From assembly GCA_024278215.1 (NCBI GenBank), contig JAJRTR010000174.1:44292-108291 (forward strand): a stretch of 64,000 bases of DNA. Direction: 5' to 3'. The notes under the pieces were generated by a model that made no database searches, was not told the DNA's origin, and saw only the letters and a program-made list of their open reading frames with translations. A program made the translations under genes and the position numbers. Shown here in pieces: positions 10,261-44,013 of the stretch (its first letter is position 1; every line of letters starts with the position of its first letter). Source of the DNA: a bacterium. GTDB lineage: Bacteria > UBP15 > UBA6099 > JAJRTR01.

Positions 10261-13200
10261 ATGCAAAAATCTAATTTGAAACATTTTGTTGTTGCAATTT
10301 TCATGATCTGTGCAATCTCTGTGCATGCATCGGCTTCCGCCGATTTTACGTCGAGTTGGACAAGTATCGAAACGAATGAAAGCACGTGCTCGGCGTGGGG
10401 CGATTATGACGGGGACGGCGACCTGGACGTTGTAGTCGGCGACGCAAATACCGGCACTATGCTTTACAGCAACGCGGGCGGCGCGTCTTTCAGTATCGTG
10501 TGGCAGTCGGAGGACGCCGACCTTGTCGTCTCACTTGCCTGGGGCGATTACGACCGTGACGGCGACCTGGATATACTTGTCGGCAACAATCCCGGAAACA
10601 ACAGGGTTTACAGCAACAGCGGCGGCGGAGTTTTCACGCTCGCCTGGACTTCCAGCAGTGTCAGGAGAACAGTCAGGGCGGAGTGGGGAGATGCGGACGC
10701 CGACGGTGACCTGGACTTTCTCGCGGGCGTCTACGATGAACCTGCAAGGGCTTTCAGGAACACGGGCGCGAGCCAATTTGAATTGATATGGAGTTCGCAG
10801 GAATCCGATCCGACTACATGTATCGACTGGGCCGACGCCGATGCGGACGGCGACCTCGATTTTGTAAAAAGTGCGAACAGCGCCGTCGACCGGGTGTACC
10901 GGAATGAAGGCGGTTCGGCCTACACTCTTATGTGGTCTTCCGCAAGATCGGATAAGGCGTATTTCACCGAATGGAGCGATTACGACGGCGACGGCGACCT
11001 TGATTTCGCGGTCGCCAATTACGATGAAAAAGACCGTGTCTACAAAAACTCCGGCAACTGGTATTTCGATATGGTCTGGGCTTCGGCGACCGACTCTCCC
11101 TCAATCGGACTGGCATGGGGCGACTACGACGGCGATGGTGACAGCGATTTGCTCTTCGGCAACTACGCTGCAAGCAATAATGTTGTTGCTTACGCCGGTT
11201 CCGATAATTTCACTGATTCATGGTCTTCGCCGGAAGCCGATTATACATACCAGGTGACATGGGCCGACTACGACGGCGACGGCGATCTCGACCACTTCGT
11301 TTCAAACATCAGCAGCCAGTCAAACCGACTCTACAAGAATAATCTTTCCATATCCAATTCACCGCCTGCGGCCCCGGTGATTACCGGACAGCCGGACGGT
11401 CTGCCCGGACTCATCACGCTTAGCTGGTCCGCCGCATCCGACGACATCACACCCGCTGTGGACCTCACTTACCAGGTGCGCGTGGGCACTTGCTCTGGGT
11501 GTGGCGGCATAATATCGGGCGCTTTCGCGCCTCCTTTCGGCAATTCGCGACAGACGGAATTCCATAAACTTAATATCCAGGACGACGGTACGTATTACTG
11601 GTCAGTGGCCGCCGTCGATAGCGCTGGGTTCTCGACCTCGACATGGTATGTCGAGGACTCGTTCACAATATCTGCTCCGAGCGGAACTCCGTACCAGTCT
11701 ATATGGACCGGTCCGTCGTCTGACCAGACAACAGCTATTGCGACCGCCGACTACGACGACGACGGTGACCTCGATTTTATTGCCGCCAATGACTCTGAAG
11801 TCAATACAGTGTACAGGTATAACGGTAACAATACTTTCACCGCCGTGTGGTCGTCTCCGGAAACAGACGCCACGAACGACGCGGCATGGGCCGACTACGA
11901 CGGGGACGGCGACCTCGACCATGCTGTCGCCGACAACGGCGCGAACCGCGTCTACTCCAAAACGGACGATTACAACTTCAGCCTCGTCTGGTCATCGACG
12001 GAAACCTCCAACTCACTCGCGACAGCCTGGGGAGACTACGACCGCGACGGCGATCTCGATTTATTTGCGGGCAACGTCGGCGCGAACCATCTGTACAGAA
12101 ACAATTCGGACGACACATTTACTCTCGTCTGGACTTCGACAGAAACAGACACGACTTCGGGCGCGGTATGGCTCGACGCCGACGCCGACGGCGTTCCGGA
12201 CATTTTCTGCGCCTCCGACGGCACTTCCGACAGGCTCTACTTGAACAACGGTGACGACACTTTCACTCTCGCATGGTCATCGACTCAGACAGACGCGACA
12301 AAAGACGCGGCGGCGGCGGATTATGACGGGGACGGACTCGTGGACATTTCCGCGCCTGCGGTCGGCGCGACACAAAACAGGCTCTACTCAAATAACGGCG
12401 ACGGCACTTTCACTCTCGCATGGTCATCGACTCAGACAGATGAAACATATTCGTGCACATGGGGCGATTACGACGGTGACGGCGACTGGGACCTGCTTGC
12501 CGGCAACAGCGGCGTCAACAGGGTATACGCGGGCGACGGCGCGGGCGGCTTCACGCTCGAGTGGTCATCCGCTGAAGGCGAAGTCACTTACGCTGCCGCA
12601 TGGGGCGATGTGGACGGCGACGGCGACCTTGATATAATCTCCGGTAACAACACTTCGGCCAACAGGCTATATCTTTACACCTCCGATATCTCGAACCTCA
12701 ACCCGGCCGCGCCCGTTTTAGTCGCCGGGAGCAACGCGACACTTTCCGGCGCTACCGTTTCCGTTACTTTCAACTGGAACGCTGCCGTCGACGACACGAC
12801 CGCCCCTGTCTCGATGATGTACCATCTGCGTGCCGGCACATGTTCCGGTTGCGACGACATCGTTTCCGGAGCTTACGCTTCACCAGTTCCCAATGTCGGC
12901 GCGACAACTTCCATTTCCATCGTTTTCGATGCTACCGGCACATACTACTGGTCTGTTGCTGCCATCGACAACACTTCTCTAAGTGCGTCATCATGGAGTT
13001 CGGAGGATAGCTTCGAGATTATCGAGCCCACGGGAACACAAACGCCGTTCGAGTCGATATGGACCGGAACGGATATCAACCTGACTCGAGATGCCGCGTG
13101 GGGCGACTACGACGGCGACGGCGATCTTGATTTCTTTGCAGCGAACTATACGCAGGGAAATTTCGTATACCGCAACGACGGCAGCGCTACTTTCAATAAA

Positions 13201-16200
13201 GTTTACGAAGACAACCTTTTCTCATATACAACATCCGGTGCGTGGGGTGACTACGACGGCGACGGCGATCTCGATTTGCTGTTCTCAAACTATAATGAAA
13301 GCAATTACGTTTTTAAAAACACGGGAAGTGACGATTTCGTGTCGGCATGGTCCACAACGCAGGCGAATTCAACAAACGACGCCGAGTGGGGCGATATGGA
13401 CGGCGACGGCGATCTCGATTTCATCGCGGGCAATGACGGCCAGTCGATTTTAGTTTTCAGCAACAACGGATCGGGCGGTTTCACGTATGGCTGGGGCTCG
13501 ACGGAAACGAATAATACGAGTTCTATTTCAGTGGTCGATTTCGATAAGGACGGTGACCTCGATTTCATCGCGGTGAACAACGGACAGTCCGATATTATCT
13601 ACGATAACGGCGGAGGCGGCACTTTCAGCGTCGCCTGGACGTCTGCTGAAACAGACAGCGGCAGCGGCGGCGCGTGGGGTGACTATGACGGCGACGGCGA
13701 CTACGACATAGCCGTAGCCAACAACACGCAGTCGAATCGCGTTTACTCGAACGCCGGGGCCGCAAACTTCACATCGGTCTGGACATCCACGGAGGCGGAT
13801 GCGTCGCACACTGCCGCGTGGGGCGACTACGACGGCGACGGCGATCTCGACCTGCTTTTCGGCAACTATTATACGACTTCCGACACCGACAGAGTCTACA
13901 CCAACGCAGGCGGCGACAATTTCCCGCTGGGCTGGTCGGCGACAAATCAGGAATACACGCGCGCGGCGGCCTGGGGCGATTACGACGGCGACGGCGATCT
14001 CGATTTCATCGCGGCCAACGAAGACGGCTCCGACAGGATTTACAGAAACAATCTTTCCATCTCCAACACCGCTCCGCCCGCTCCCACACTGACGTTAATT
14101 GACGACGGTGACCCGGGTACGGTCGTTTTTCAATGGGCTGCCACTTCCGATGACATCACCCCCGACAGCCTGCTTGCATTCCAGTTGCGCGTCGGCACGT
14201 GCACGGGCTGCGACGACATTATAAGCGGCGAATTCGCGCCTCCTTTTGTCAACATGGGCGCTACCGGCTCCTACCCGATGATACTCGGCAACGGCGATTA
14301 TTACTGGTCCATTGCTTCTGTCGACACCACAGGTTTCTCTGTTTCCTCGTGGAGCACAGAAGACGACTTTCACCTCGAACATATACCGGCAGTCCCATTC
14401 GAGTCCACATGGCAAAGCACCGAAAGCAACAGGACGGCGGCACTCGCATTGGGCGATTTCGACGGCGACAGCGACCTCGACCACATTGCTGCCGACTCCG
14501 ATTCGATTCGCCTTTACCGCAACACAGGATCGTATTCTTTCACGCTCGCCTGGTCATCGTCGTCGATGACAAACAACATGGATGCCGCGTGGGGCGACTA
14601 CGACGGCGACGGCGATCTCGATTTCGCTGTTTCCACCGGCTCGGGCGGTTACGTGTCGGTCTATGAGCAGACAACTTACGCCGCCTTTTCATCCGTATGG
14701 GCTTCGTCTCAAACAGATAAAACATACAGTGTCGCGTGGGCCGACTGCGACGCGGACGGCGACCTCGACCTTCTAACCGCCAATCTCGCGGACGGCTCGA
14801 CTGGTTCGAACAACAGGGTATACCGTAACGAAGGCCGCGGCGACTTTGTCGTCAACTGGACATCTGCCGAGGCCGACATAACTTATGATGCCGCGTGGGG
14901 CGATTACGATGGCGACGGCTACAGGGATATTGTCGCGGGAAACGACGGCGCGAACAGGATTTACCGAAATGTCGCATGTGACTACTTCACCATCGTGTGG
15001 ACTTCCGTCGAAAGCGACAGGACGACCGGCGTCGCGTGGATGGACTACGACGGCGACGGCGACCTTGATTTCGCCGCGGGCAGCGCGGACGGCAACGACC
15101 GTGTTTATAATAACGACGGCGCGGGCGGTTTCTCCGCCGTGTGGACTTCCACCGCCACATCGACGACTTCATCAGTCGCATGGGGCGACTACAACGCCGA
15201 CGGCTACCCCGATCTCGCTTCAGTCAACAACAGTTCTATCGCCGATTCGGAACATGTTTACGGCAACAACGGCGACGATACCTTTTCGACAGCGTGGAAC
15301 TCGCCTCTCGATGAGGAATCGCAGGACGTCGCATGGGGCGACATCGACGGCGACGGCGACCTCGACCTGCTCATAGCTTCCGGCGGCGACACATCGGCGG
15401 ATGCGAATATCCTGTATGTCAATTACGTCGAGCCGGCGAACAACGCACCTACTACTCCGTCCGTAACCGTGGTTCCAGACGGTTTCACCGGCTATGTCGA
15501 CCTGCAATGGACTGCTTCAACTGATGATGTTACTCCGTCTGATGAAATCCGCTACATCGTCCGGGCCGGTACTTGCTCCGGTTGCAACGACATCATTTCC
15601 GGCCTCTATTCGCCGCCTCTGACCAATGCCGGTACGGCAACTAGTTACAGGGTACATATCGCCGGTGCGGATACATATTACTGGCAGGTTAAGGCGATAG
15701 ATATGGCAGGCTTCCGCGAATCAGGCTGGTCGAACGCCGATGATTTCGTCTTGACAGACCGTTTCTCATCCGCATGGACCGGAAGCGCATATTACAATAT
15801 TGAAGATGTCGCGTGGGGCGACTACGACGGCGACGGCGACCTCGACATAGCTGCGGCGGTAAACGGTACGCCCAACCTTGTTATCGAAAACAGCGGTGGC
15901 GGCAGTTTTTCGACGGTTTGGTCTTCTTCCGAAAGCGATTACACACGCTCCGCCGCCTGGGGCGACGCGGACAACGACGGCGATCTCGATATTCTCGTGG
16001 GCAACACCGATTCGGCTTCGGGCGGCGACCAGAACCGCGTCTATTCCAACAACGGCGACGGCACGTTTACTGTCACATGGTCCACCTTTGAAATGAACCG
16101 TACTTACGATGCTGTGTTTACAGACTGCGACGCGGACGGCGACCTCGATATTGTCGCCGCTAATGAATATGAAAACATAATTTACACCAATAATGGCGGT

Positions 16201-19200
16201 AGTTCGTTCACTTCAAGTTCATTGTCTTCACACCAGGAGCGGACACGGGCGCTATCTCCCGCCGACTTCGATGCCGACGGCGACTTCGACTTGCTCGAAG
16301 GCAACTACGGCGCGCCCAACAGGGTATTCAGAAACGACGGCTCGGGCAATTTCTCCGAACTGTGGGCCTCTTCCGGCAGTGAATATACCTCTGCTGTCGC
16401 ATGGGCCGACACAGACGGCGACGGCGACCTCGACGCTTTCTTCGGCAACAGTTACGTGGGTGCACTGAACTATATTAATGTTAATGACGGCGCGGGTTCG
16501 TTCTCCGCCTCATGGACATCGCGCGACGCCGACGAAACTTATGACGCCGCGTTCGGCGACACAGACGGCGACGGGGACCTCGACCTGATTACCGCCAACA
16601 GCGATTCTGATTCCACCCGCGATAATTACAGGCTCATCCGCGTTTACTCGAATTCCGGCGGCAACTTGTTCGCGGCATCGGCAAACATGGGAGCCGGCGA
16701 TTATGCCGTTGCTGTCGCGCTCGGCGACTATGACGGCGACGGCGACCTCGATATCCTCGAAGGTTCGAGCGACGGCGGCGACGACATGCCTGTTCGTGTG
16801 TATATGAATAACATGGACCCGTCGAATGCCGCTCCATCCGCGCCGTCTGTTATCAAAACAGACAACCAGGTTCTCTCAGCCGCTACTTCTCCGATCTCCA
16901 TAGCGTGGTCCGCACCGTCCGACGACATCACAGTCACCGCGCTCCTGTCATATCAGTTACGTATCGGCACATGCCCCGGCTGCAGCGATGTTATGTCGGG
17001 CGCTTTCGCGCCTCCCGGCGGCAATATCGGCGCGACGACTGCTGTCAATATCAACATGTCCGATTCTGGCACGTACTACTGGTCGGTCGCGGCGGTGGAC
17101 AACACAGGCTTCGCGACAGGCGCATGGTCGGACGAGGAATTTTTCGCCGTTTCACTTCCCCTGTTCGATACAGGTTGGACGAGTCCCGAAGGTGGAACAT
17201 GCAGGGATGCCGCGGCAGGTGACTTCGACGGCGACGGCGACCTCGATATTGCATCGAGCTTCGACGCGCAGAATATGGTTTATGAGAATAACGGCAGTGG
17301 CTCTTTCAGCGACGCATGGACATCCGCCGAGTCTGAAAACACGATGGAAGTCGCATGGGGCGACTACGACAACGACGGCGACCCGGACATACTTGTCGCC
17401 TCCGCAAACGGGCCTGCGAGGATATATAAAAACACTGGCGGCACCTTCTCTACTGCATGGTCATCCATTATGAGCGTGCAGGGCGGCGGCGTCTCATGGG
17501 CCGACCTCGACAACGATGGCGACCTCGACTTCGCCGCCTCGAGCTACGGCATAAACAATCTCGTCTACAGAAACGACGGCGGCGATTCTTTCACCCTTTC
17601 ATGGCTTTCCAGCGACACAGACAACACAACTGACGTCGAATGCGCCGACTTCGACAATGACGGCGACAGCGACATTGCCGCTGCGAATGAGTCCGGACCT
17701 GTGAAGCTTTACGCAAACGACGGCGCGGGCAGTTTCATTGCTGTCTGGACATCCTCCGACACCGGCTACACAAGTGGGATTTCGACCGGAGATTACGACG
17801 GTGACGGCAATTTGGATATGCTCACGGTGGCTGGTTCTTCATACTACAACAGAGTGTACCGGGGCGGTGGCGGCGGCACATTCACAGCCGTGTGGACCGC
17901 TGGAGAGGACGGTCCGTTTTCCGGCGGCGCGTGGGGCGACTACGACGCGGACGGCGACCTCGATTTCTTCGTCTCCTACAGCGGCACAGACAGTCGTGGC
18001 AGCCACGTTTATCGCAATACAGGTAGTGATTCCTTCAACCTCGTGTGGGCGTCGCTGAATGATGACGCGTCGTACAGCGCCGCCTTCGGCGATTTCGACG
18101 GCGACGGCAATATCGATCTGCTCTCGGCGAATACCGGCGTAAGAACATGGACGAATATGTCCACCGTATCGAACAGCGCGCCCGCGCAGCCGACTGTAAC
18201 AGCCGTCGGCGATCAGGAATTCCACATCTCGGCCACTCCTGCCGTAACACTGTCATGGACCGCGCCCTCCGACGACTACACACCCTCGAATTCACTCACA
18301 TACCAGGTGCGAGTCGGCACTTGTTCGGGATGTAGCGACATCGTCTCCGACACTTTCGTGCCGCCGTGGGGCAACGCCGGCCCTTCGACGTCATACACTT
18401 TCAACGCGACCGCATCCGGCACTTATTACTGGAGTGTATCCGCCGTGGACACTTCGGGGTTCCTCGTGGGCGCGTCGAGCGCGGAGGATGTCTTCGATGT
18501 TTCATTTTCGATGCTCGGCACAAGGACACCGTTCGATTACTCGTGGTACGGCAGCGCGTCCGACTACAGCAGCGGCAGCGCCTGGGGCGACTACGACGCC
18601 GACGGCGACCTCGACATCCTGATTTCAGACGCCGGCGCGTCCGCCGGCAACAGGATATACTCGAACGACGGCGGCAACACCTTCACGCTCGCGTGGACGG
18701 CGACTGAATGGAACACAACGGAAGCCGCCGCCTGGGCTGACTACGACGGTGACGGCGACCTCGACGCTGTTTTCGTTTCAGGCGGTTCGGGCGAGCCGAA
18801 TTATGTTTACCGAAATGTTGGCGCGGGCGGCTTCGTAGTCGGTTGGACTTCGACGGAAACCGAGCCTTCGCAGGCCGTTGCCATCGGCGATTTCGACGGC
18901 GATGGCGATCTTGATATCTTCGTCGGAAATAACAGCGCGTCTGTTCCTGACCGCGTTTATAAAAATGTTTCCACAGGTTTCACCACCGCCTGGACTTCGT
19001 CTTCATACTACACGACGCGCGCCGTGGATATGGCAGACTACAACCTCGACGGTCGCCCCGACTTACTGCTCGGCAACAGCGGCTCTGCCATGGAACCGAT
19101 TGTCATATATTCGAACAAAGGCGGCGAGTGTTTCACCGAAGCCTGGACTTCGTCCGAGCAGGAATACACTTCCGCCGTCGAGTGGGGCGACTACGACGGC

Positions 19201-21768
19201 GACGGCGACCTCGACATCGCCGCCGGCAACTGGATGGGCGACGAAACTATCAGGATATACGCCAACATCAGCGGTAATTACTCTTCCGTCTGGACCCGCT
19301 CCAGCGTCGACAGAACCGTCGATGTCGCCTGGGGCGACTACGACGGCGATGGCGACCTCGATCTGCTCGCCGGCAACGCGGAAGTCAACTATAAATATAA
19401 TCGCATCTTCACAAACGACGGCGGCGATTCTTTCTCTCTCTACTGGTCTTCTGCCGAAGACGAGAGTACCGGTGATGTCGACTGGGCGGATTACGACAAC
19501 GACGGCGACCTTGACTTCTTCGCTGCAAACAACGGTATCGACAGGGTTTATACGAACAACGACAACCCGTCGAACACCCCCCCGTCCGCGCCGGTCGTCA
19601 ATGCTGTGCCGGACGGCTATACCGGTCGAATATCCTTCTCGTGGTCGGCGGCTTCGGACGACATAACAGGCGGCAGCGCACTTAACTACCAGGTGCGCAT
19701 CGGCACATGTTCAGCTTGCGACGACATCATGCCGGGCGAATTCTCACCACCACGCACGAATGCAGGAGCGACTACTTCCATCACTCTCGGCATCGCCGAG
19801 ACCGGAACATATTACTGGTCGGTAGCCGCCGTTGACGCCACCGGTTTCTCCGTATCGTCATGGAGCGCGGAGGACACTTTCACATTGACTGAGCCCTCGG
19901 GGACATTCTCGACATTCTGGCTGGACATGACTTCTGACGAGACGCGCGGCGTCGCCTGGGGCGATTACGACGGTGACGGCTACCTCGATTTCGCCGCTGG
20001 TAATTACGGGCAGCCCAACCGGATTTTCCGAAACAGCGGCGGTACTGCTTTCGTGTTTACGTGGAAAACCACTGAGGCCGACAACACTACCGGCGTCGCA
20101 TGGGGCGACTACAACGGCGACGGCTACCTCGACCTGCTCGCACCTTCTTACAACAGCAAAAACCGCGTTTACCGCTACGACGGCGGCGACTTCACACTCG
20201 CATGGTCTTCGGATAATTCGGATACGACCACGGACGCCCTGTGGGGTGACAGCGACAACGACGGCGACCTCGATATTTTCGTTGCCGACAAAGGACAGGC
20301 ACTTCGCGTTCTCAACAATTCTAATGGGAGTTTCTCTTCCGTGTGGACTTCGCTTCAGGCCTACAATACGAATTCTATTGACTGCGGTGATTTCGACGGC
20401 GACGGCGACCTCGATATCATTGCAGGCATCGGCGGTTCCGCTTCGAACAGAATTTATGAAAATTCAGGCAGCAACTTATTTGTGCTTGTCTGGTCGTCCG
20501 CGCAGACTTACTCGACTGAATATGTGCTGTGGGGCGATTACGACGGCGATGGCGACCTCGATATTTTCTCTGCAAATACCGGCGGTTCGGACCCGAATGT
20601 CATTTATTCAAATTACGGTCTGCGCACCTTTGTGCAAACGTGGGCCTCTGCTGAAATGGAAACATCACAGGCAGCCGCACACGGCGACTACGACGGCGAC
20701 GGCGATTTCGACATCGTTGTCGGAAACACCGATGAAACTTCCAACCGCGTCTACAGCAACGACGGTTCCGGCAGTTTCACTCTCCAGTGGACATCCCCGC
20801 ATACGGAAGACACGTACAGCATCGCTTTCGGCGACTTAGACAACGACGGCGACATCGACATGCTCGCGGGCGGCGACACGCTGCGCGTTTATGAAAACAA
20901 CACAGACCCCGCGAACACCGCGCCCGTCGCTTCGGATTTAACCGCTGTTTCGGATGCGGAAATTCAGGGAGATTCTCTCGATGTCGCTTTTCTGTGGTCC
21001 GACGCCGGCGACGATCTCACCGCGGCACCCCTGCTGTCGTATCAACTCCGAATCGGCACATGCTCGGGTTGCGACGACATCGTATCCGGCACATTCGTGC
21101 CCCCGTCCGGCAATATCACCGCCACTCAAACTTTTATAACTTTCAGCACTGCCGGTGATTACTACTGGTCTGTGCGCGCTGTGGACAGCACGGGCTTCTC
21201 CGCCGGAAGCTGGAGTTCGGAGGACACTTTCACACTCACTTTCGGCGCTCAGCAGACGACAACATTGACCTCCGGCTGGAATCTCATGACATTCCCCGGC
21301 GACATAGCTTCGAGCACTATCAGCTCATCTCTCAGTACTTACTCTGATGTCGGCGACACATTCGGTTTCTCCGGCGGCAAACTTATTGAAGGAACAAGCG
21401 TTAATGTCGAACTCGCTTCAGGCTACTGGGTATACGCGGAAAACTCCGTGGAAATAACACTCGGCGGCGCGTCGGCTACGCCAGACTCTCAAACCGTCAC
21501 TGTCTCTCCACTCGACAACGGCTGGAACCTCGTCGGAAATCCTTATGTGAAATATCTGAAATGGGCCGACAACATAACCATCGACTGCGGCTCAGGAGAC
21601 ACAGTTCTTTCCGGTGCCGTGACAGCAGGATATACCGACGGCAACATATATGAATATTCGGGGTCAGGGTATGAAAAAATATCCAGCGGCGACTACATAA
21701 AACCATGGAACGCATTTTTTATTAGGATCGAGCAAACCTGCTGCTCGATGAAGCTCACACTTGATTAA
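10261..21768 (+). CDS. Giant secreted protein with eight 7-bladed FG-GAP/VCBS propellers and Fn3-like linkers
   Basis: 3835 residues. A signal peptide (MQKSNLKHFVVAIFMICAIS, cleavage near residue 27) is followed by eight superunits of about 455 residues. Each holds exactly seven repeats of about 48 residues built on W-T/S-S ... A-W-G-D-Y-D-G-D-G-D-L-D ... N-R-V-Y-x-N-x-G. The D-x-D-G-D-G-x-x-D loops are calcium sites of FG-GAP/VCBS blades, so seven suggest one closed integrin-alpha-like propeller. One Fn3-like domain of about 105 residues follows each set; the eight begin near 366, 814, 1269, 1727, 2188, 2637, 3104 and 3554. Each carries G-T-C-x-x-C and Y-Y-W-x-V/I. The C-terminus (about 3664-3835) has two GWNL modules, shared with the secreted protein at 49187. 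No LPxTG or PEP-CTERM anchor is seen. An adhesive or surface-scaffold role is inferred. Confidence 0.88.
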   Translation: MQKSNLKHFVVAIFMICAISVHASASADFTSSWTSIETNESTCSAWGDYDGDGDLDVVVGDANTGTMLYSNAGGASFSIVWQSEDADLVVSLAWGDYDRDGDLDILVGNNPGNNRVYSNSGGGVFTLAWTSSSVRRTVRAEWGDADADGDLDFLAGVYDEPARAFRNTGASQFELIWSSQESDPTTCIDWADADADGDLDFVKSANSAVDRVYRNEGGSAYTLMWSSARSDKAYFTEWSDYDGDGDLDFAVANYDEKDRVYKNSGNWYFDMVWASATDSPSIGLAWGDYDGDGDSDLLFGNYAASNNVVAYAGSDNFTDSWSSPEADYTYQVTWADYDGDGDLDHFVSNISSQSNRLYKNNLSISNSPPAAPVITGQPDGLPGLITLSWSAASDDITPAVDLTYQVRVGTCSGCGGIISGAFAPPFGNSRQTEFHKLNIQDDGTYYWSVAAVDSAGFSTSTWYVEDSFTISAPSGTPYQSIWTGPSSDQTTAIATADYDDDGDLDFIAANDSEVNTVYRYNGNNTFTAVWSSPETDATNDAAWADYDGDGDLDHAVADNGANRVYSKTDDYNFSLVWSSTETSNSLATAWGDYDRDGDLDLFAGNVGANHLYRNNSDDTFTLVWTSTETDTTSGAVWLDADADGVPDIFCASDGTSDRLYLNNGDDTFTLAWSSTQTDATKDAAAADYDGDGLVDISAPAVGATQNRLYSNNGDGTFTLAWSSTQTDETYSCTWGDYDGDGDWDLLAGNSGVNRVYAGDGAGGFTLEWSSAEGEVTYAAAWGDVDGDGDLDIISGNNTSANRLYLYTSDISNLNPAAPVLVAGSNATLSGATVSVTFNWNAAVDDTTAPVSMMYHLRAGTCSGCDDIVSGAYASPVPNVGATTSISIVFDATGTYYWSVAAIDNTSLSASSWSSEDSFEIIEPTGTQTPFESIWTGTDINLTRDAAWGDYDGDGDLDFFAANYTQGNFVYRNDGSATFNKVYEDNLFSYTTSGAWGDYDGDGDLDLLFSNYNESNYVFKNTGSDDFVSAWSTTQANSTNDAEWGDMDGDGDLDFIAGNDGQSILVFSNNGSGGFTYGWGSTETNNTSSISVVDFDKDGDLDFIAVNNGQSDIIYDNGGGGTFSVAWTSAETDSGSGGAWGDYDGDGDYDIAVANNTQSNRVYSNAGAANFTSVWTSTEADASHTAAWGDYDGDGDLDLLFGNYYTTSDTDRVYTNAGGDNFPLGWSATNQEYTRAAAWGDYDGDGDLDFIAANEDGSDRIYRNNLSISNTAPPAPTLTLIDDGDPGTVVFQWAATSDDITPDSLLAFQLRVGTCTGCDDIISGEFAPPFVNMGATGSYPMILGNGDYYWSIASVDTTGFSVSSWSTEDDFHLEHIPAVPFESTWQSTESNRTAALALGDFDGDSDLDHIAADSDSIRLYRNTGSYSFTLAWSSSSMTNNMDAAWGDYDGDGDLDFAVSTGSGGYVSVYEQTTYAAFSSVWASSQTDKTYSVAWADCDADGDLDLLTANLADGSTGSNNRVYRNEGRGDFVVNWTSAEADITYDAAWGDYDGDGYRDIVAGNDGANRIYRNVACDYFTIVWTSVESDRTTGVAWMDYDGDGDLDFAAGSADGNDRVYNNDGAGGFSAVWTSTATSTTSSVAWGDYNADGYPDLASVNNSSIADSEHVYGNNGDDTFSTAWNSPLDEESQDVAWGDIDGDGDLDLLIASGGDTSADANILYVNYVEPANNAPTTPSVTVVPDGFTGYVDLQWTASTDDVTPSDEIRYIVRAGTCSGCNDIISGLYSPPLTNAGTATSYRVHIAGADTYYWQVKAIDMAGFRESGWSNADDFVLTDRFSSAWTGSAYYNIEDVAWGDYDGDGDLDIAAAVNGTPNLVIENSGGGSFSTVWSSSESDYTRSAAWGDADNDGDLDILVGNTDSASGGDQNRVYSNNGDGTFTVTWSTFEMNRTYDAVFTDCDADGDLDIVAANEYENIIYTNNGGSSFTSSSLSSHQERTRALSPADFDADGDFDLLEGNYGAPNRVFRNDGSGNFSELWASSGSEYTSAVAWADTDGDGDLDAFFGNSYVGALNYINVNDGAGSFSASWTSRDADETYDAAFGDTDGDGDLDLITANSDSDSTRDNYRLIRVYSNSGGNLFAASANMGAGDYAVAVALGDYDGDGDLDILEGSSDGGDDMPVRVYMNNMDPSNAAPSAPSVIKTDNQVLSAATSPISIAWSAPSDDITVTALLSYQLRIGTCPGCSDVMSGAFAPPGGNIGATTAVNINMSDSGTYYWSVAAVDNTGFATGAWSDEEFFAVSLPLFDTGWTSPEGGTCRDAAAGDFDGDGDLDIASSFDAQNMVYENNGSGSFSDAWTSAESENTMEVAWGDYDNDGDPDILVASANGPARIYKNTGGTFSTAWSSIMSVQGGGVSWADLDNDGDLDFAASSYGINNLVYRNDGGDSFTLSWLSSDTDNTTDVECADFDNDGDSDIAAANESGPVKLYANDGAGSFIAVWTSSDTGYTSGISTGDYDGDGNLDMLTVAGSSYYNRVYRGGGGGTFTAVWTAGEDGPFSGGAWGDYDADGDLDFFVSYSGTDSRGSHVYRNTGSDSFNLVWASLNDDASYSAAFGDFDGDGNIDLLSANTGVRTWTNMSTVSNSAPAQPTVTAVGDQEFHISATPAVTLSWTAPSDDYTPSNSLTYQVRVGTCSGCSDIVSDTFVPPWGNAGPSTSYTFNATASGTYYWSVSAVDTSGFLVGASSAEDVFDVSFSMLGTRTPFDYSWYGSASDYSSGSAWGDYDADGDLDILISDAGASAGNRIYSNDGGNTFTLAWTATEWNTTEAAAWADYDGDGDLDAVFVSGGSGEPNYVYRNVGAGGFVVGWTSTETEPSQAVAIGDFDGDGDLDIFVGNNSASVPDRVYKNVSTGFTTAWTSSSYYTTRAVDMADYNLDGRPDLLLGNSGSAMEPIVIYSNKGGECFTEAWTSSEQEYTSAVEWGDYDGDGDLDIAAGNWMGDETIRIYANISGNYSSVWTRSSVDRTVDVAWGDYDGDGDLDLLAGNAEVNYKYNRIFTNDGGDSFSLYWSSAEDESTGDVDWADYDNDGDLDFFAANNGIDRVYTNNDNPSNTPPSAPVVNAVPDGYTGRISFSWSAASDDITGGSALNYQVRIGTCSACDDIMPGEFSPPRTNAGATTSITLGIAETGTYYWSVAAVDATGFSVSSWSAEDTFTLTEPSGTFSTFWLDMTSDETRGVAWGDYDGDGYLDFAAGNYGQPNRIFRNSGGTAFVFTWKTTEADNTTGVAWGDYNGDGYLDLLAPSYNSKNRVYRYDGGDFTLAWSSDNSDTTTDALWGDSDNDGDLDIFVADKGQALRVLNNSNGSFSSVWTSLQAYNTNSIDCGDFDGDGDLDIIAGIGGSASNRIYENSGSNLFVLVWSSAQTYSTEYVLWGDYDGDGDLDIFSANTGGSDPNVIYSNYGLRTFVQTWASAEMETSQAAAHGDYDGDGDFDIVVGNTDETSNRVYSNDGSGSFTLQWTSPHTEDTYSIAFGDLDNDGDIDMLAGGDTLRVYENNTDPANTAPVASDLTAVSDAEIQGDSLDVAFLWSDAGDDLTAAPLLSYQLRIGTCSGCDDIVSGTFVPPSGNITATQTFITFSTAGDYYWSVRAVDSTGFSAGSWSSEDTFTLTFGAQQTTTLTSGWNLMTFPGDIASSTISSSLSTYSDVGDTFGFSGGKLIEGTSVNVELASGYWVYAENSVEITLGGASATPDSQTVTVSPLDNGWNLVGNPYVKYLKWADNITIDCGSGDTVLSGAVTAGYTDGNIYEYSGSGYEKISSGDYIKPWNAFFIRIEQTCCSMKLTLD
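10339..21240 (+). repeat. In-gene tandem repeat array: 8 superunits, 56 blade units
   Basis: At DNA level the coding region repeats a motif of about 145 bp (core gacggcgacggcgacctcga and variants) 56 times, grouped in eight superunits of about 1.34-1.40 kb. The core stays close at nucleotide level while the rest of each unit diverges, which favours recombination or slippage and makes the region prone to assembly errors. Confidence 0.85.
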
Positions 21769-36984: not shown

Positions 36985-39957
36985 ATGAATACAATTTTTC
37001 CCGCTAATGTGTCTGCGCACTTACTGCTGCAGGCCATGGCAGCTAATTACAATCTCAGGTATCGATACAGGAAGTATCTCAAGAGCACAAACGGCTGGAT
37101 CGACTTCTCGGTGGGTTTCAGAACACGCGACGACACCATCGTTCAGACTATTAGCTTCAAAGACGGTCGTGCCCGTGTGACAGGCCGAATCATAAAAAAT
37201 GTGGATGCGGTGATAGTGTTCGAGGACGATTCCGCTTTCATGAATATGCTCAGCAATTCTTCCGAAGAAGTATTGACTATGATGCTTAAAAACCGTATCC
37301 GCATAAAAGGCAATCATTTATGTGTGCTGCTGTTCTATTTTCTTATGTCCCTTCTTATGAATGAGTTCAAGGGCAAGGGGACGGGTAAGGAGACGGCCCG
37401 CAACGGCAACACGCCGCCTCGCAAAAAAAGTGCATTGCCGAAGCACGTACCGGAGCGCCCCAGTATTCGACGCAAGGCTACCCTCACTATCGAGCGCACC
37501 GGTGAGGGGGTTAAGTATCTCGACGATCCATACCTGTCACAATACTGCCTTGAAGACTTTCCGCGCCTGGGGCGTTTCCTTTCCATTCACTTCGACACGA
37601 TGCCCGAGGTTTGCCCGGAGCGTGCAAAGTTGATCACGGACTGGTATCTGAAAAACGGGTTCGAGAAGAAGCGCAACGGGCAACCGTGGATTCCCGAGAC
37701 GCGCCAGGCTTACGCGTTCAAGCACCTGATGGAAAACAAGAAACCCATCATTCGCGAAGATGACCTTATCGCCGGAACCACCACGACTATGCCGATAGGG
37801 GCGGTAATGTATCCCGATTCGCAGGGTATGTTTATATGGCCCGAACTGTACACTATGTCCAGCCGTGAGATGAACCCGTGCCGCGTTTCACGCAGAACGG
37901 CAAAGGTCCTGCACCACCATGTGTTTCCGTTCTGGATGCGGCGCAACATCAAGCTGTGGGTAGGCGAAAAATACAATAACCCGCTGTGCGAACAAATCGG
38001 TGACCACCTTGTGGTGTACATACTGTCAAAAAGTGTGGCCCTGTCGCACACGATTGCGGATTTCCCAACACTTCTGGCACTCGGCACCAGCGGCATCCGC
38101 CGTAAAATCAGCGAGGAATTGCTGCGCGATACGGCGGCGGACAAGCAAAAACGATATACCCTGGAAGCAATGTCTATATGTCTCGACGGACTGGAATCGT
38201 ATACAAGAAACCTCGCCGGGCACGCGCGTAAACTTGCGCGCAAGGCCGTAAGCACGCAACGACGCGGGGAACTCGAGCGCCTCGCTGAAATCTGCGACAA
38301 AGTTGCTGTTGATCCGCCCGATACCCTTGACGAGGCGATAAATCTCATCTGGATCGCCTGGGTGGCTCTGCACATGGAAAACACCAACGTGGGGCTGTCG
38401 CTGGGTCGTATGGACCAGTGGCTGCAACCGTTCTTCGAGTCCGATATAGAAAAGTGCACAACACAGGAACAACGCGAGAAATATATCAAGCACGCCATAC
38501 GGCTTGTGTGCTGCTTCTTCCTGAGATGTACGGATCATATACCTATGTCGCCGGATGTGGGCAAACATGTGGTGGGCGGTGCGCCTGCCAACCAGGCCGT
38601 TACTCTGGGCGGTGTCACGCCGGACGGCAAGGATGCCGTCAACGACATGACCTATATTTTTCTTAAGGCAACCGAGATGCTCGGCATCCGCGACCCCAAC
38701 GTGAACGCGCGATACAGCCCGGAGAAGAATTCCGACACGTATCTCAAGCGCCTGTGCGAAGTGAATCTGATCACCACCGCTTCACCGTCCATGCACAATG
38801 ACAGCGCGGTGATAACATCGCTTGAAGAGTTCGACTATCCTATTGAAGATGTACGCGACTGGTCGTCCACAGGCTGTGTCGAGCCCACGCTTTCGGGCAA
38901 ACACATCGGGCACACCGGCTGCATGATGATGAACATGGTTGCCGCGCTGGAGATGGCACTCAACGACGGCACCCACCCGCTGATGAAGTGGGACCTCGGC
39001 CCGAAAACAGGGAGTATCGACAACGGCGCTTTCCCCACTTTCGAGGACTTCTTCGAAGCGTTTAAAATACAGTTCGAGTTCCTGATTGCAAACGCCGTGC
39101 AGTACAACAACTACCTTGGCGAATCGCACAGCGTGATGCGCCCTACTCCGCTGCTTTCGGCCATGATCCGCGACTGCATCCGCAACGGAAAAGACCTGAC
39201 CAAAGGCGGCGCACGCTATAATTCATCAGGCATAGCCTGCATCGGACTGATCGACGTTACGGACTCGCTTATCGCTATAAAAAAATTCGTTTACGACGAC
39301 AAACTCATTACGTTCGCGGAACTCAAGGACGCAGTTGATTCCAATTTCAAAAAACACAGTATGCTGTACGCCATGATCCAGAATAAATCCGTCCGGTTCG
39401 GATCGGGCAACGCCGAGGCGCTCGAAATGGCCAACAGGATAACGAAAGTCACGCACGACGCGTTCGCGTCGCACAGGAACTTCCGGGGAGGTATCTACAC
39501 TACCGGGTTCTGGTCGATGTCCAACCATGTGGCGTTCGGAATGCTCACAGGGGCGCTTCCTTCGGGGCGCCTTGCTGGTGCTCCCTTCACACCCGGCCTC
39601 ACGCCGCAGTCGCACGCTTCCAACAACCTGCTCGACAATATCAAGGACGTTGCCGGGCTGGACCCGCACAACATGAACAACAACATCGCCTTTAATATAA
39701 AGGTATTTCCCGCTGCCGGAGAAAGCCATGAGAAATCTGTGGACGATATATATTCTTACGTGAAGACATACTTCGATCTGGGCGGTATGCAGATACAGCT
39801 CAACGTGATCAACACCGAGACGCTGCGCGATGCGATGGCCCGCCCTGAGAATTACCAGAACCTGCTTGTGCGCATTTCGGGGTATAACGCTTACTTCACT
39901 ACACTTACAAAGGAGCTTCAGCTCGAACTCATCCATCGGGCCGAGTTCGGCATCTGA
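36985..39957 (+). CDS. Glycyl radical enzyme with N-terminal SCP2-like domain
   Basis: 990 residues. About 15-125 resemble an SCP2 lipid-binding domain (I-S-F-K-D-G-R-A-R-V-T-G, D-A-V-I-V-F-E-D-D, L-K-N-R-I-R-I-K-G-N). After a basic linker (130-165), residues 180-990 are a complete pyruvate-formate-lyase-type barrel. The active-site motif is S-T-G-C-V-E-P with C631 and E633, as in the eliminating GREs (glycerol or diol dehydratase, choline TMA-lyase, hydroxyproline dehydratase) and unlike the C-C of PFL. The glycyl radical loop is RISGYNAYF with G966. It is expected to abstract a substrate hydrogen and eliminate water or an amine, giving an aldehyde or ketone. The lipid-binding domain suggests a hydrophobic substrate. 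The activase gene follows 2 bp later. Confidence 0.88.
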   Translation: MNTIFPANVSAHLLLQAMAANYNLRYRYRKYLKSTNGWIDFSVGFRTRDDTIVQTISFKDGRARVTGRIIKNVDAVIVFEDDSAFMNMLSNSSEEVLTMMLKNRIRIKGNHLCVLLFYFLMSLLMNEFKGKGTGKETARNGNTPPRKKSALPKHVPERPSIRRKATLTIERTGEGVKYLDDPYLSQYCLEDFPRLGRFLSIHFDTMPEVCPERAKLITDWYLKNGFEKKRNGQPWIPETRQAYAFKHLMENKKPIIREDDLIAGTTTTMPIGAVMYPDSQGMFIWPELYTMSSREMNPCRVSRRTAKVLHHHVFPFWMRRNIKLWVGEKYNNPLCEQIGDHLVVYILSKSVALSHTIADFPTLLALGTSGIRRKISEELLRDTAADKQKRYTLEAMSICLDGLESYTRNLAGHARKLARKAVSTQRRGELERLAEICDKVAVDPPDTLDEAINLIWIAWVALHMENTNVGLSLGRMDQWLQPFFESDIEKCTTQEQREKYIKHAIRLVCCFFLRCTDHIPMSPDVGKHVVGGAPANQAVTLGGVTPDGKDAVNDMTYIFLKATEMLGIRDPNVNARYSPEKNSDTYLKRLCEVNLITTASPSMHNDSAVITSLEEFDYPIEDVRDWSSTGCVEPTLSGKHIGHTGCMMMNMVAALEMALNDGTHPLMKWDLGPKTGSIDNGAFPTFEDFFEAFKIQFEFLIANAVQYNNYLGESHSVMRPTPLLSAMIRDCIRNGKDLTKGGARYNSSGIACIGLIDVTDSLIAIKKFVYDDKLITFAELKDAVDSNFKKHSMLYAMIQNKSVRFGSGNAEALEMANRITKVTHDAFASHRNFRGGIYTTGFWSMSNHVAFGMLTGALPSGRLAGAPFTPGLTPQSHASNNLLDNIKDVAGLDPHNMNNNIAFNIKVFPAAGESHEKSVDDIYSYVKTYFDLGGMQIQLNVINTETLRDAMARPENYQNLLVRISGYNAYFTTLTKELQLELIHRAEFGI

Positions 39958-39959
39958 CT

Positions 39960-40862
39960 ATGGCCGGCGATCCGCTTATATTCGAGATAAAGAGAAATTC
40001 ACTTGACGACGGACCCGGCATCCGCACGGTAATATTCTTCAAGGGCTGCCCGCTGTCCTGCTCATGGTGCCAGAACCCGGAGGGCCGCTGTCCGCGTGTC
40101 GAGATTTCCTTTGATCGGAAAAAGTGCATTGATTGTAAGACCTGCCTTAACATCTGCAAAAACAGCGCGCTGGACCGCCATCCGCTTTATTTCATCGAAC
40201 GCGAGAAGTGTGACCTGTGCTTCGAATGCGCGGACAACTGCCCGACCGAAGCGCTGGCACGTGTGGGCAGGCATATTTCGGTACAAGAAATCATGGACGC
40301 CGTTGTTCGCGACATTCCGTTCTTCAACACTTCGGGCGGTGGCGTCACTCTGTCCGGCGGCGAGGCAACTCTATACATGCCGTTCGCCTCGAAACTCCTC
40401 CAGGCTCTCAAGCAGCAGGACATCAGCACACTGCTCGAAACCTGCGGCCATTTCGATTTCCAGGCCTTCGACGAGCTTATCTACCCATGGCTGGACCAGA
40501 TTTATTACGATTTGAAGTTTTTCGATTCCGGCTTCCACCGGAAATACTGCGGGGTCCCAAACGATCAGATTCTCGAAAACTTCGAGAAGCTCTACGCTCG
40601 CTCGCTTGACGGCGGCGTGCCGATTCTGCCGCGCATTCCGCTCGTTCCGAGACTGACTGCCGTGAAGACGAATCTACGGGCTCTGGCCGCTTTCCTCCGC
40701 AAGAACAAGGCTCGGCAGGTTTCCCTGCTCGAATACAATCCACTGTGGCAGGATAAAATGATTACCGTTGGAATGACCAGTGATTACGACAAGACCGACT
40801 GGATGACAAAAAAGGAAGTGAAAGTATGCCGGTCTTTCTTTAAAAAATTCGACATCATATAA
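39960..40862 (+). CDS. Glycyl radical enzyme activase (radical SAM)
   Basis: 300 residues. The radical SAM motif is C30-x3-C34-x2-C37 (CPLSCSWCQNPEG), preceded by D-G-P-G-I-R-T-V-I-F-F-K-G. An inserted ferredoxin segment has two further cluster motifs, C56/C59/C62/C66 and C84/C87/C90/C94, as in activases of GREs other than PFL. T-S-G-G-G-V-T-L-S-G-G-E follows. It installs the glycyl radical on G966 of the enzyme encoded 2 bp upstream, and tight coupling of the two genes supports this pairing. It is cytoplasmic and oxygen-sensitive. Confidence 0.93.
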   Translation: MAGDPLIFEIKRNSLDDGPGIRTVIFFKGCPLSCSWCQNPEGRCPRVEISFDRKKCIDCKTCLNICKNSALDRHPLYFIEREKCDLCFECADNCPTEALARVGRHISVQEIMDAVVRDIPFFNTSGGGVTLSGGEATLYMPFASKLLQALKQQDISTLLETCGHFDFQAFDELIYPWLDQIYYDLKFFDSGFHRKYCGVPNDQILENFEKLYARSLDGGVPILPRIPLVPRLTAVKTNLRALAAFLRKNKARQVSLLEYNPLWQDKMITVGMTSDYDKTDWMTKKEVKVCRSFFKKFDII

Positions 40863-40950
40863 TCAATCGCGTCGAGCCCATATATGTGCGCCTCAACCAC
40901 GGGCTTCTTCGCATTCAGGAACAGGATTACAGGAAAGAGGATATCGACTC

Positions 40951-43900
40951 ATGCAGAACAGAAAGTGGAACTACGAGGAATATTGCAGGCCGGATTTTGT
41001 GAAGATGCTTCGGGCGCTGAGGCTCGATGTGCATTTCACGAGAGCCGCCGGCGATTACCTTTATTATACCGACGATAACGGGCAGGAGATTGCTATACTC
41101 GACCTTGCGGGCGGCATGGGCTCAACGATACTTGGACACAACAATCCGGCAGTAAACAAAACACTTGCCCGCTGCCTCGAGTCCGGTGTGCCGATGCACG
41201 CCCAGGGCACGGTACGCGAGTCTGCCGGCAGGCTGGCCGCCCGCCTCAACCAATTATATCCCGGCGCACAGAAACGCATTTGTATCTTTACCAACACTGG
41301 CACCGAAGCTGTCGAAACCGCACTCAAACACGCCGAGATGAATCGCATGAAACGCCTGCTTGCAATCGGTAAGGACCTCAAAGCGCACCACAAAAAGATG
41401 CGGGAGTACTTCCGCGACAATACAGGCTACACCCTGCCGGAAAAATATCGCGACAGGGGCTTCGACTCGCTGCTTAACGACATTCTCATGCAGGGGCTGC
41501 TGCTCGAGCAACTCCCGCCGGTCGTTATATCCACAAAAGGCGCGTTCCACGGCAAGACCACCTCGGCGCTGAGCGTGACAGGCAACAAGATGTACCGCGA
41601 GCCTTTCGCCCGTATGAGCGGCATCCGGACAAAGTTCATCGATTTCAACGATGCCGCTCAACTCGAATCAACTCTGGAAAATAATTATTTCGAAATAAAC
41701 AAGATCGTTGTCGAAGACGGCATTGTCAGGCTTGTCCCCGATAAGCATCTGAATATTACGGCATTCATCACGGAACCGATTCAGGGCGAGGGCGGTATAC
41801 ATGTCGCCACACAGGAATTTATCGGGCAGATCGCCGCTCTTCGCGACAGACACGGGTTCGAATGGATCGTGGACGAAATACAGTCGGGCATGGGCCGCAC
41901 TGGTTCTTTCTTCGCTATGGAACGATACGGAATCGACCCGGACACGGTGGACTATGTGCTGCTTTCCAAGTCGCTCGGCGGAGCCGTATCCAAACTCAGC
42001 GTCGCTATGATCCGCGAGCCGATACACGACGGCAATTTCGGGATGCTTCACACGTCTACCTTCGGCGAGGACGCTTTATCATGCGAAGTGGCCCTGACTG
42101 TTCTGGATGAACTTACCGGTAATGATAAAGCGCTGATACGCAACTGCTCCGACATGGGCGACTACCTGATGGCCGGACTGCGCGAACTGAAGGAAAAACA
42201 CCCGGGCGTTGTGTCGGGTGTGCGCGGAGCGGGTCTCATGGCTGGTGTCGAGTTCAATGTGCGACGCAACGGCAAGTCGATCTTCTTCGCCGAACTCGCG
42301 GCCCAGGGCGGACTGGGAATGCTCATTGCCGGATACCTGTTCCACGAGCACCGCATACGCACTCAACCACCCCTCAACTCCATCATCACTAAAAAACCTT
42401 CGAACATACTCCGCATCGAGCCTTCCGCACTTATCGACAAAAAAGACATCGACCGTGTGCTCTTCGCCCTCGACCGCGCATGTGAGATCGTCGAAAAATC
42501 AAATGCTTACGAACTTACAAAATTCGTGATCGACAAGGAAACACCCGGCGAATATGTAGATATTAAGGACTTCTTCGAACCTGTGGAACCGTCCGCGGAG
42601 CAGGCGGACTTCGAGAACGTGCGCCAGATGGGTTTCCAGTTCCACCCGCTGGACGTACACCAGGTGATGGAAGGCTTCGACAAATCGCTGTGCGAGTTCA
42701 GCCGCGAGCCGGACCCCGCAACCGGGCAATCGGAGCGCGACCTGTACTGGGACCGCCTCGTGCCCATTCTGGGCGCATTCGTGCTCAAGGTAATCAATCT
42801 GAAGTCGCCCCGCACCGGCGACAGAGTGCGTGCCACACTGTTCGGACTGCCCTACACAACACGTCAGATGCTGGACCTGCATAAAAACAATCCCCAATTC
42901 CTCATCGACCGCATCCAGGAAGGTGCCGAACGCGCCGCCGCTATGGGCGCGCGCATATTCGGGCTCGGGGCTTTCAACTCCATCGTCACTCACGACGGCA
43001 TGGACCTCGACGACACCAACATCCGCATCACCAGCGGCAACTCATACACCGCCGCACTGATATGGCAAAGTGTCCTCAAGGTTGCCGATTACGCCGAACT
43101 CGATCTGGAAAAATCAACCGCTGCAATCGTCGGCGCCGGCGGCAACATCGGCAGCGTCACAGCCAGTCTTCTGTCCGAAGACATCTCGCACTTTATCCTG
43201 CTGGGCAGCAAAAAAGAGAAATCTATCGAAAAACTCCGCGCTACCGCTTGCTCGATCTATTCCGACACCGTGGACGTCCTTCGCTCGACAAAACCCAGAG
43301 ACCTTAAGGGCCTCGCGAAGGCTCTCGCTCAGGACCTGCTCATTCCATTCATTCCGCTCTACGGGCGCGACTATATTTTCAAAAAAGACGCTATAACTGA
43401 ATACATCGAAGGCAATTACAAGGGCAAAGACCTCGAGGTGGGCCGCCTCATAAAGTCCATCTTCTTTCCGCGTTCAGCTCCCGACATCGGTGAAAAAATC
43501 TACGAAGCCATACAGATCAAGCACGGCACGGACCCGTATATCACACTGGACAACGACCTTGAAAAACACCTCGCCGTGTCCGATATTGTCGTGTCCGCGG
43601 TCAGCTCGGACCGCACTATAATGGAAGCCGAATGGTTCAAGCCCGGCGCCATTGTAAACGACGTGAGCCTGCCCACCAGCGTTTCCGACAAGATTTACAA
43701 AGAACGCCCCGACGTGATTGCGTTCGAGGGCGGCGTCGGACACCTGCCCGAATATATTGACCTCGGCATTCCCGGCCTGGTGCCTGGTGCCACTCTCGGT
43801 TGTGTCGCGGAAACCTTCATGTGTACGATGATGAACATTATAGAAAACTACAGTTTCGGCCCAATCACAAAGAAACAGGTTCTTAAAATATGGGAGATCG

Positions 43901-44013
43901 GCAATATGCTGGGATTCGGGCTGGGCGGCGTCAAATACATGACCGATAAAAAGCTCACACGCAAGATCGCAAAAGAAATCATCGGCAAAAGCTCAACAGC
44001 AGTATTGAAATGA
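40951..44013 (+). CDS. Class III aminotransferase fused to acyl-ACP-reductase-like domain
   Basis: 1020 residues; GAGG lies upstream of the ATG. Residues 1-510 are a class III PLP aminotransferase: F-T-N-T-G-T-E-A-V-E-T-A, D-E-I-Q-S-G-M-G-R-T-G, and L-L-S-K-S-L-G-G with K340 as Schiff-base lysine. An insertion of about 60 residues follows the first motif. Residues about 555-1015 resemble long-chain acyl-ACP/CoA reductases of the cyanobacterial alkane pathway: R-A-A-A-M-G-A-R-I-F-G-L-G-A-F, I-T-S-G-N-S-Y-T-A-A, Rossmann loop V-G-A-G-G-N-I-G (727-734), and C-V-A-E-T in the last part. The reductase half would make an aldehyde from a thioester and the aminotransferase half would interconvert aldehyde and amine. 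It lies 88 bp after the GRE activase on the same strand. The natural substrate is unknown. Confidence 0.82.
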   Translation: MQNRKWNYEEYCRPDFVKMLRALRLDVHFTRAAGDYLYYTDDNGQEIAILDLAGGMGSTILGHNNPAVNKTLARCLESGVPMHAQGTVRESAGRLAARLNQLYPGAQKRICIFTNTGTEAVETALKHAEMNRMKRLLAIGKDLKAHHKKMREYFRDNTGYTLPEKYRDRGFDSLLNDILMQGLLLEQLPPVVISTKGAFHGKTTSALSVTGNKMYREPFARMSGIRTKFIDFNDAAQLESTLENNYFEINKIVVEDGIVRLVPDKHLNITAFITEPIQGEGGIHVATQEFIGQIAALRDRHGFEWIVDEIQSGMGRTGSFFAMERYGIDPDTVDYVLLSKSLGGAVSKLSVAMIREPIHDGNFGMLHTSTFGEDALSCEVALTVLDELTGNDKALIRNCSDMGDYLMAGLRELKEKHPGVVSGVRGAGLMAGVEFNVRRNGKSIFFAELAAQGGLGMLIAGYLFHEHRIRTQPPLNSIITKKPSNILRIEPSALIDKKDIDRVLFALDRACEIVEKSNAYELTKFVIDKETPGEYVDIKDFFEPVEPSAEQADFENVRQMGFQFHPLDVHQVMEGFDKSLCEFSREPDPATGQSERDLYWDRLVPILGAFVLKVINLKSPRTGDRVRATLFGLPYTTRQMLDLHKNNPQFLIDRIQEGAERAAAMGARIFGLGAFNSIVTHDGMDLDDTNIRITSGNSYTAALIWQSVLKVADYAELDLEKSTAAIVGAGGNIGSVTASLLSEDISHFILLGSKKEKSIEKLRATACSIYSDTVDVLRSTKPRDLKGLAKALAQDLLIPFIPLYGRDYIFKKDAITEYIEGNYKGKDLEVGRLIKSIFFPRSAPDIGEKIYEAIQIKHGTDPYITLDNDLEKHLAVSDIVVSAVSSDRTIMEAEWFKPGAIVNDVSLPTSVSDKIYKERPDVIAFEGGVGHLPEYIDLGIPGLVPGATLGCVAETFMCTMMNIIENYSFGPITKKQVLKIWEIGNMLGFGLGGVKYMTDKKLTRKIAKEIIGKSSTAVLK

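Follow-up and report, generated by a model that had tools for sequence, protein, structure and literature searches.

An SCP2-linked family of predicted glycyl radical eliminases, found in one narrow lineage beside a TamH-type aminotransferase-reductase gene

Organization of the locus

The stretch of DNA analysed here, which we call the window, comprises 64,000 nucleotides from a bacterium of the UBA6099/UBP15 group (G000:C151:44292-108291, with G000 being the window genome; G and L numbers denote sampled genomes and loci, respectively). It carries three open reading frames (ORFs) on the same strand, which are listed with their predicted key residues in Table 1. The first encodes a glycyl radical enzyme (GRE) that has an SCP2 domain at its N-terminus, the second, 2 bp downstream, a GRE activase of the radical S-adenosylmethionine (SAM) type, and the third, after a gap of 88 bp, a fusion of a class III aminotransferase with an AAR-like thioester reductase. 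An initial annotation, made from the sequence alone, had proposed that these three proteins handle one lipid-like substrate through an aldehyde. The catalytic residues that it named (C631-V-E633, G966 and K340), the gene order and the intergenic gaps were all recovered at the same positions. Scans for promoters and terminators returned numbers of sites not above chance.

Table 1. Coordinates of the three genes and of their predicted domains and key residues in the window
Feature	Coordinates	Strand	Basis
SCP2-linked GRE, 990 aa: SCP2 domain, linker, PFL/eliminase barrel	36985..39957	+	Pfam, AlphaFold2 (AF2) model, Foldseek
N-terminal SCP2-fold domain, residues 1-127	36985..37365	+	AF2, Foldseek, PF02036 in relatives
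Linker between SCP2 and GRE barrel, residues 128-161, low-confidence, probably flexible	37366..37467	+	predicted local distance difference test (pLDDT) <50 in full-length model
H355, invariant; aligns with His of glycerol dehydratase and HypD, and with Asp of CutC	38047..38049	+	Alignment
C631-V632-E633, predicted thiyl-radical Cys and acid/base Glu, invariant in 46 members	38875..38883	+	Alignment
G966, glycyl radical residue (RISGYNAYF), invariant	39880..39882	+	Alignment
Radical-SAM GRE activase with extra 4Fe-4S motifs, 300 aa	39960..40862	+	TIGR02494
TamH-type fusion, 1020 aa: class III aminotransferase and AAR-like thioester reductase	40951..44013	+	
K340, pyridoxal phosphate Schiff-base lysine, aminotransferase domain	41968..41970	+	Aligned in fusion homologues covering the site
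GAGGNIG (residues 728-734), nicotinamide-nucleotide motif, reductase domain	43132..43152	+	
C951 (GCVAET), predicted acyl-transfer Cys, equivalent to SeAAR C294 and PtTamH C887	43801..43803	+	Alignment

The GRE has a predicted eliminase core

As judged from Pfam, the main body of the GRE is composed of a PFL-like domain (residues 205-852; E 1e-160, 537 bits) and a Gly_radical domain (residues 868-972; E 1e-23, 83.9 bits), both scoring above the cut-off, and the nearest structures retrieved by Foldseek were the glycerol, propanediol and hydroxyproline dehydratases and CutC. We aligned 46 family members from many phyla, which are 51-61% identical to the window GRE, and found C631, V632, E633, P634, T635, H640, H643, T644, H355, S472 and G966 to be invariant. 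Such an invariant core, at this level of identity across phyla, suggests that the family carries out one conserved reaction. The domains, the Cys-x-Glu motif, the glycyl radical loop and the activase assign the enzyme to the eliminase type, with elimination as its predicted reaction. The activase itself contains radical SAM and 4Fe-4S domains and matched TIGR02494 with 277 bits, above the cut-off of 174.

The known eliminase GREs (glycerol/propanediol dehydratase, HypD, CutC, PflD and YbiW) share with the window enzyme the PFL-like barrel, the Cys-x-Glu motif, the glycyl radical loop and a nearby radical-SAM activase. However, the window GRE is ~24-32% identical to them, forms a clade of its own, carries the SCP2 domain in front of the barrel, and has other substrate-contacting residues. 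Its scores remained far below the cut-off of each NCBIfam equivalog compared, i.e. HypD (445 bits against 1100), CutC (381 against 1050), PflD (381 against 1109), HpfG/HpsG (373 against 1000), indoleacetate decarboxylase (275 against 1100) and HPAD (228 against 1150), and a HypD control (L117) passed the HypD equivalog with 1432 bits. The initial annotation had taken the GRE for an eliminase type. Both the tree and these scores placed it outside every characterised clade tested.

The N-terminal domain has the SCP2 fold

The N-terminal part of the GRE had initially been read as SCP2-like. In the window protein the match to PF02036 was weak (E 0.04-0.09; 14.6 bits against a gathering score of 21.3). 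Across the family, this profile was matched by 24 of the 46 members at E <=1 (best E 4.8e-5), and any other family by at most two members. An AF2 model of residues 1-143 (pLDDT 84; 88 for the model of the full-length GRE) retrieved the SCP2 domain of UbiJ in a Foldseek search (6h6p, E 1e-5), and aligned with the SCP2 domain of human MFE-2 with a Z of 13 (VIA-align). Further fold neighbours were archaeal SCP2 and the SCP2-like C-terminal domain of alkylsulfatases (SdsA1). UbiJ and the alkylsulfatase SdsA1 are enzymes or factors that handle hydrophobic substrates. In three genomes (G061, G064 and G046), the homologous GRE lacks the N-terminal domain and a gene of 148-162 aa lies between GRE and activase instead; among 302 ORFs, these separate genes matched the SCP2-domain profile with E 9e-19, 2e-15 and 5e-10. 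The SCP2 reading was thus borne out by the fold, by the profile matches in the family, and by the free-standing genes beside homologous GREs. In the model, the N-terminal domain is SCP2 by fold, with lipid binding as its putative function. The fold is the same as in UbiJ, the SCP2 domain of MFE-2 and SdsA1, but its presence on a GRE is reported in no paper that we found: a search of the open literature yielded no paper that connects either SCP2 or sterol carrier domains with GREs, and nothing useful on GREs and ether lipids.

Phylogeny and distribution of the SCP2-linked GRE

In the tree, the fused SCP2-GRE forms were monophyletic (100/100) and nested within a larger SCP2-linked clade (100/99) that includes the split forms and excludes HypD, CutC, PflD and YbiW, some of the reference branches being long. 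On the deeper branches of this clade, SCP2 is encoded by a gene of its own that lies between those for GRE and activase, so that the same three parts would have been split at first and fused later. The SCP2 domain is present in every family member with a complete gene.

The SCP2-GRE was found in all seven sampled genomes of the order and, among 91 other genomes, in G041, G026 and G050, the last being a fragment cut at the contig end. A scan of named genomes gave 227 GRE relatives, and the best 80 of these form what we call the 80-locus set. These span Desulfobacterota, Myxococcota, Actinomycetota, Spirochaetes, Chloroflexi, SAR324, and rumen and other Bacillota, as well as the group of the window itself (UBA6099/UBP15, ADurb.Bin236, DeMMO6_30), and include the sulfate reducer Desulfatibacillum alkenivorans (L084). 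The family is widespread in oxygen-free microbes and apparently undescribed, and is the finding worth following. Viral contigs yielded no relative of either the GRE or the fusion.

At three loci a second, different GRE (with a GCLEN motif in those read) and its own activase lie close to the SCP2-GRE (L062 4685-7201, L118 10533-13049, L108 12674-15187). A relative of this second GRE is present elsewhere in the window genome (L006 1486-3885), and no NCBIfam equivalog fits the copies scanned.

Genes in the vicinity of the GRE

Neighbours were counted within 8 kb of the GRE in the 80-locus set, whereby genes were assigned by similarity to one representative each and mostly named by eye. The activase was present at 51 of the 80 loci. 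Other recurrent neighbours were FadR-like TetR regulators (33), short-chain dehydrogenases/reductases (SDRs; 16), extended SDRs (14), acyl-CoA ligases (12), aldehyde:ferredoxin oxidoreductases (11), the glycerol kinase GlpK (9), Zn alcohol dehydrogenases (6) and aldo/keto reductases (2). Class III aminotransferases occur near the GRE at 4 loci, including L054, L057 and L114, and one of the four is ArgD-like and part of an arginine cluster. The aldehyde:ferredoxin oxidoreductase is co-directional with and close to the GRE in three separate lineages (L053, L107, L128), and at L114 a TetR regulator, activase, GRE, SDR-SDR fusion and AAR-like reductase lie together, with the class III aminotransferase upstream. 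These neighbours suggest that the product is a carbonyl compound and that the GRE is connected with lipid metabolism, although many of the counts are not independent. The aldehyde theme of the initial annotation is probable, as GRE neighbours in other phyla are often carbonyl enzymes. Glycerol kinase was also considered as a marker of glycerol release, and this was dropped since 8 of its 9 loci belong to one syntenic clade.

Two further features of the neighbourhood were observed. Smithella-type genomes have an extended SDR and a short SDR behind the GRE, and in L079 (12519-14474) and L114 (11625-13469) these two are present as a single fused protein, which suggests that they act together. Directly upstream of the GRE, phosphatase-like genes of the HAD type or the calcineurin type are found in two separate groups (L035 7605-8471, L036 10938-11804 and L038 3343-4209; L045 4263-5693 and L046 6998-8245), and these might hint at a phosphorylated precursor.

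The neighbours also bear on the question whether the SCP2 domain has to do with the substrate at all, since the GRE could act on a small soluble diol or amino-alcohol, and the SCP2 domain could do no more than anchor it to the membrane or to a partner. The characterised eliminase GREs matched here indeed act on small polar substrates, and the linker is predicted to be disordered. However, none of the full-length members of the fused clade found here has lost SCP2, the sister groups retain it in the form of a separate gene, and the neighbours include acyl-CoA ligases and FadR-like regulators. We consider such a small substrate rather unlikely.

The fusion belongs to a known type and is a local addition

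The N-terminal half of the fusion matched Aminotran_3 (residues 27-475; E 6e-68, Pfam), and the C-terminal half resembles AAR (TIGR04058, E 1e-12; SeAAR structure 6jzu, E 8e-5) as well as the AAR-like half of PigE. The (G/A)C-AET motif around C951 is conserved in all homologues aligned, and this Cys was also aligned via the AAR-like half of PigE; K340 and the NAD motif are conserved as well. Initially, the combination of all three proteins had been considered without precedent among characterised GRE pathways. The fusion type by itself is not new: PtTamH, from tambjamine biosynthesis, and PigE, from prodigiosin biosynthesis, are characterised aminotransferase/thioester-reductase di-domain enzymes (PMC9594044, PMC8341465). 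PtTamH converts C12 acyl-ACP (acyl carrier protein) to the aldehyde with NADH, and subsequently to the amine with glutamate (PMC9594044). It has the same N-terminal class III aminotransferase and C-terminal AAR-like reductase, with a Lys at position 340 in both proteins, an NAD motif and an acyl-transfer Cys, whereas the window fusion is longer (1020 versus 941 aa) and sits behind a GRE operon. PigE combines the same two activities in one protein and is the best NCBIfam match of the fusion (E 6.6e-100), but its domain order is opposite, and the score for NF053554 was 336 bits against a cut-off of 850. We assign the fusion to this known TamH/PigE type, for which the predicted activity is the conversion of an acyl thioester to an aldehyde and then to an amine. 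No TamA-like adenylation-ACP partner was seen by eye among the flanking ORFs, and no search for one was extended to other parts of the genome.

The fusion adjoins the GRE in two of the seven genomes of the order (the window genome and G002). In G001, G003 and G004 it clearly does not, and neither does the activase, and the contigs of G005 and G006 break off no more than ~220 bp past the GRE, so that adjacency cannot be judged there. The G006 fusion shares a ThyX neighbour with a G001 copy that has no GRE beside it, and at E 1e-60 no fusion match was obtained in G003 and G004 (the latter 67% complete). In the wider scan the fusion lay beside the GRE at 1 of the 80 loci, which is the same relative as the G002 case, and at E 1e-50 it was found in none of the 33 SCP2-GRE genomes outside the order; the same query had matched seven genomes in an earlier search, four of them by partial matches. 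Conversely, G034 and G052 contain fusion homologues, and the SCP2-GRE was not found there at E 1e-150. The two GRE-adjacent fusions are 83% identical to each other and form their own clade. The other fusions of the order are 50-58% identical to this pair and 59-71% among themselves (one pair 99%), and they lie elsewhere, one of them beside a thiolase/SCP2-DUF35 group. As judged from these comparisons, the GRE-adjacent fusion is a lineage-specific duplicate, a local addition and not a defining partner.

The initial annotation had itself named a rare adjacency of fusion and GRE in related genomes as a refuting result, and this is largely what was observed. The rarity of the fusion next to the GRE, in G001, G003, G004 and the genomes outside the order, as well as its occurrence in G034 and G052, speak against one dedicated three-gene pathway in which the GRE makes a long-chain aldehyde that the fusion aminates, or the fusion supplies the aldehyde, to give an amino-lipid or fatty amine. 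What favours it is the tight same-strand order in the window genome and G002, with their closely related fusions, the aminotransferase and AAR-like genes at L114 and the aminotransferases at L054 and L057. Also, directly behind a fusion copy in G005 (L043 2397-5717, G005:C156), the same strand encodes a homologue of sphingosine-1-phosphate lyase (3mad, E 1.7e-133), an enzyme type that releases long-chain aldehydes. On balance we find such a pathway improbable. Alternatively, the fusion may be an unrelated fatty-amine synthase that happens to lie beside the GRE and activase unit, which we hold to be possible, though somewhat less likely than not, and which is compatible with a lipid-directed GRE. 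Its sister copies lie apart from any GRE, as in the thiolase/SCP2-DUF35 case (L009), but position and orientation are kept in two families of the order (f1 and f3) even though the flanking genes differ. Overall, the initial pathway proposal is partly supported: it was right about an unusual GRE and a probable aldehyde, and wrong about a conserved three-gene unit, while a local link of the three genes is possible in the window's own lineage.

Other copies of the fusion have surroundings of their own. A second TamH-type fusion in the window genome (58% identical; L009 5280-13544, G000:C43) is divergently oriented next to thiolases, a DUF35-like protein and another protein, apparently made up of two SCP2-like domains and DUF35. 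In G034 (L042 7768-13002), a TamH-like fusion adjoins an SDR and an alpha-oxoamine-synthase-like gene (CqsA/SPT type). An acyl-AMP-ligase-like gene is separated from them by a few genes, and the group may be another amino-lipid or signal cluster. The second fusion copy of G002 (L030, G002:C488) has one TAG inside the match, from a sequencing error or in a pseudogene. Elsewhere in the window (10261-21768), an ORF of 3835 aa with many GDYDGDGDLD repeats (FG-GAP/VCBS-like) probably encodes a large surface or secreted protein.

Proposed reaction and candidate substrates

Our tentative proposal, which we place just short of an even chance, is that the SCP2-tethered radical eliminase acts on the polar head group of a lipid-like substrate, which would be a vicinal diol, an amino-alcohol or a glycerol ether, and releases a carbonyl compound. 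The core would be a two-protein module of the SCP2-linked GRE and its activase. From family membership, the activase is expected to put the radical on G966. By analogy with CutC, diol dehydratase and HypD, the C631 thiyl radical would then abstract a hydrogen next to the substrate hydroxyl, and E633 and H355 would help the leaving group depart from the neighbouring carbon, giving the carbonyl product. The flexibly tethered SCP2 domain may take up the lipid-like substrate and present it to the GRE barrel. In other lineages the carbonyl product might be passed to whichever oxidoreductase is encoded nearby. In the window lineage, where a duplicated TamH-type fusion has been placed behind the activase, the fusion would convert acyl thioesters to fatty amines, or the aldehyde formed by the GRE could be aminated by the transaminase half of the fusion. 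The parts, folds, conserved residues, clade, split and fused forms and gene neighbours rest on observation; the kind of reaction, the class of substrate and any cooperation of GRE and fusion are what we infer here, and a lipid-like substrate is suggested because of the SCP2 domain and the neighbours.

Several observations weigh against this proposal. The substrate-contacting residues of glycerol/propanediol dehydratase, which we take to be H281, S282 and D447 (C. butyricum numbering), are not kept, as V469/G470 stand in the place of H281/S282 and G645 in that of D447, and the analogy to diol dehydratases thus reaches no further than the catalytic core. An SCP2 fold can also mediate contacts between proteins. 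The set of neighbours varies from lineage to lineage, the neighbour counts are given without a background rate, and several of these are non-independent, such as those of the aldehyde:ferredoxin oxidoreductase and GlpK in one syntenic clade (L065, L076, L077, L081, L083, L089, L091, L106).

Alkylglycerols are one candidate substrate, because D. alkenivorans, in which the family occurs, produces alkylglycerol ether lipids (PMC11150832, PMC5552659). Sphingoid bases form a second candidate class, as each of the seven genomes of the order carries a homologue of sphingosine-1-phosphate lyase, the window genome two, and in G005 such a homologue lies directly behind a fusion copy. Around the lyase copies of G000, G001 and G003 no sphingolipid cluster was recognisable by eye, and the SDRs downstream of the GRE in Smithella-type genomes match generic families only (PRK06181; OleD/HpnA), all below the cut-off. 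A role in sphingolipid metabolism is therefore no more than a lead.

Little is understood of how anaerobes degrade lipid head groups, particularly those of ether lipids. For this process, a widespread radical enzyme that brings along its own lipid-carrier domain is a concrete and testable candidate. In its boldest form, which we regard as doubtful, the SCP2-GRE would be the first GRE to act on a membrane lipid. It would cleave or dehydrate, in the absence of oxygen, the glycerol, diol or amino-alcohol head group of lipids of the ether, sphingoid or another type and free an aldehyde or ketone, which would let anaerobes recycle lipids that otherwise persist. If true, glycyl radical chemistry would extend from small polar molecules to lipids.

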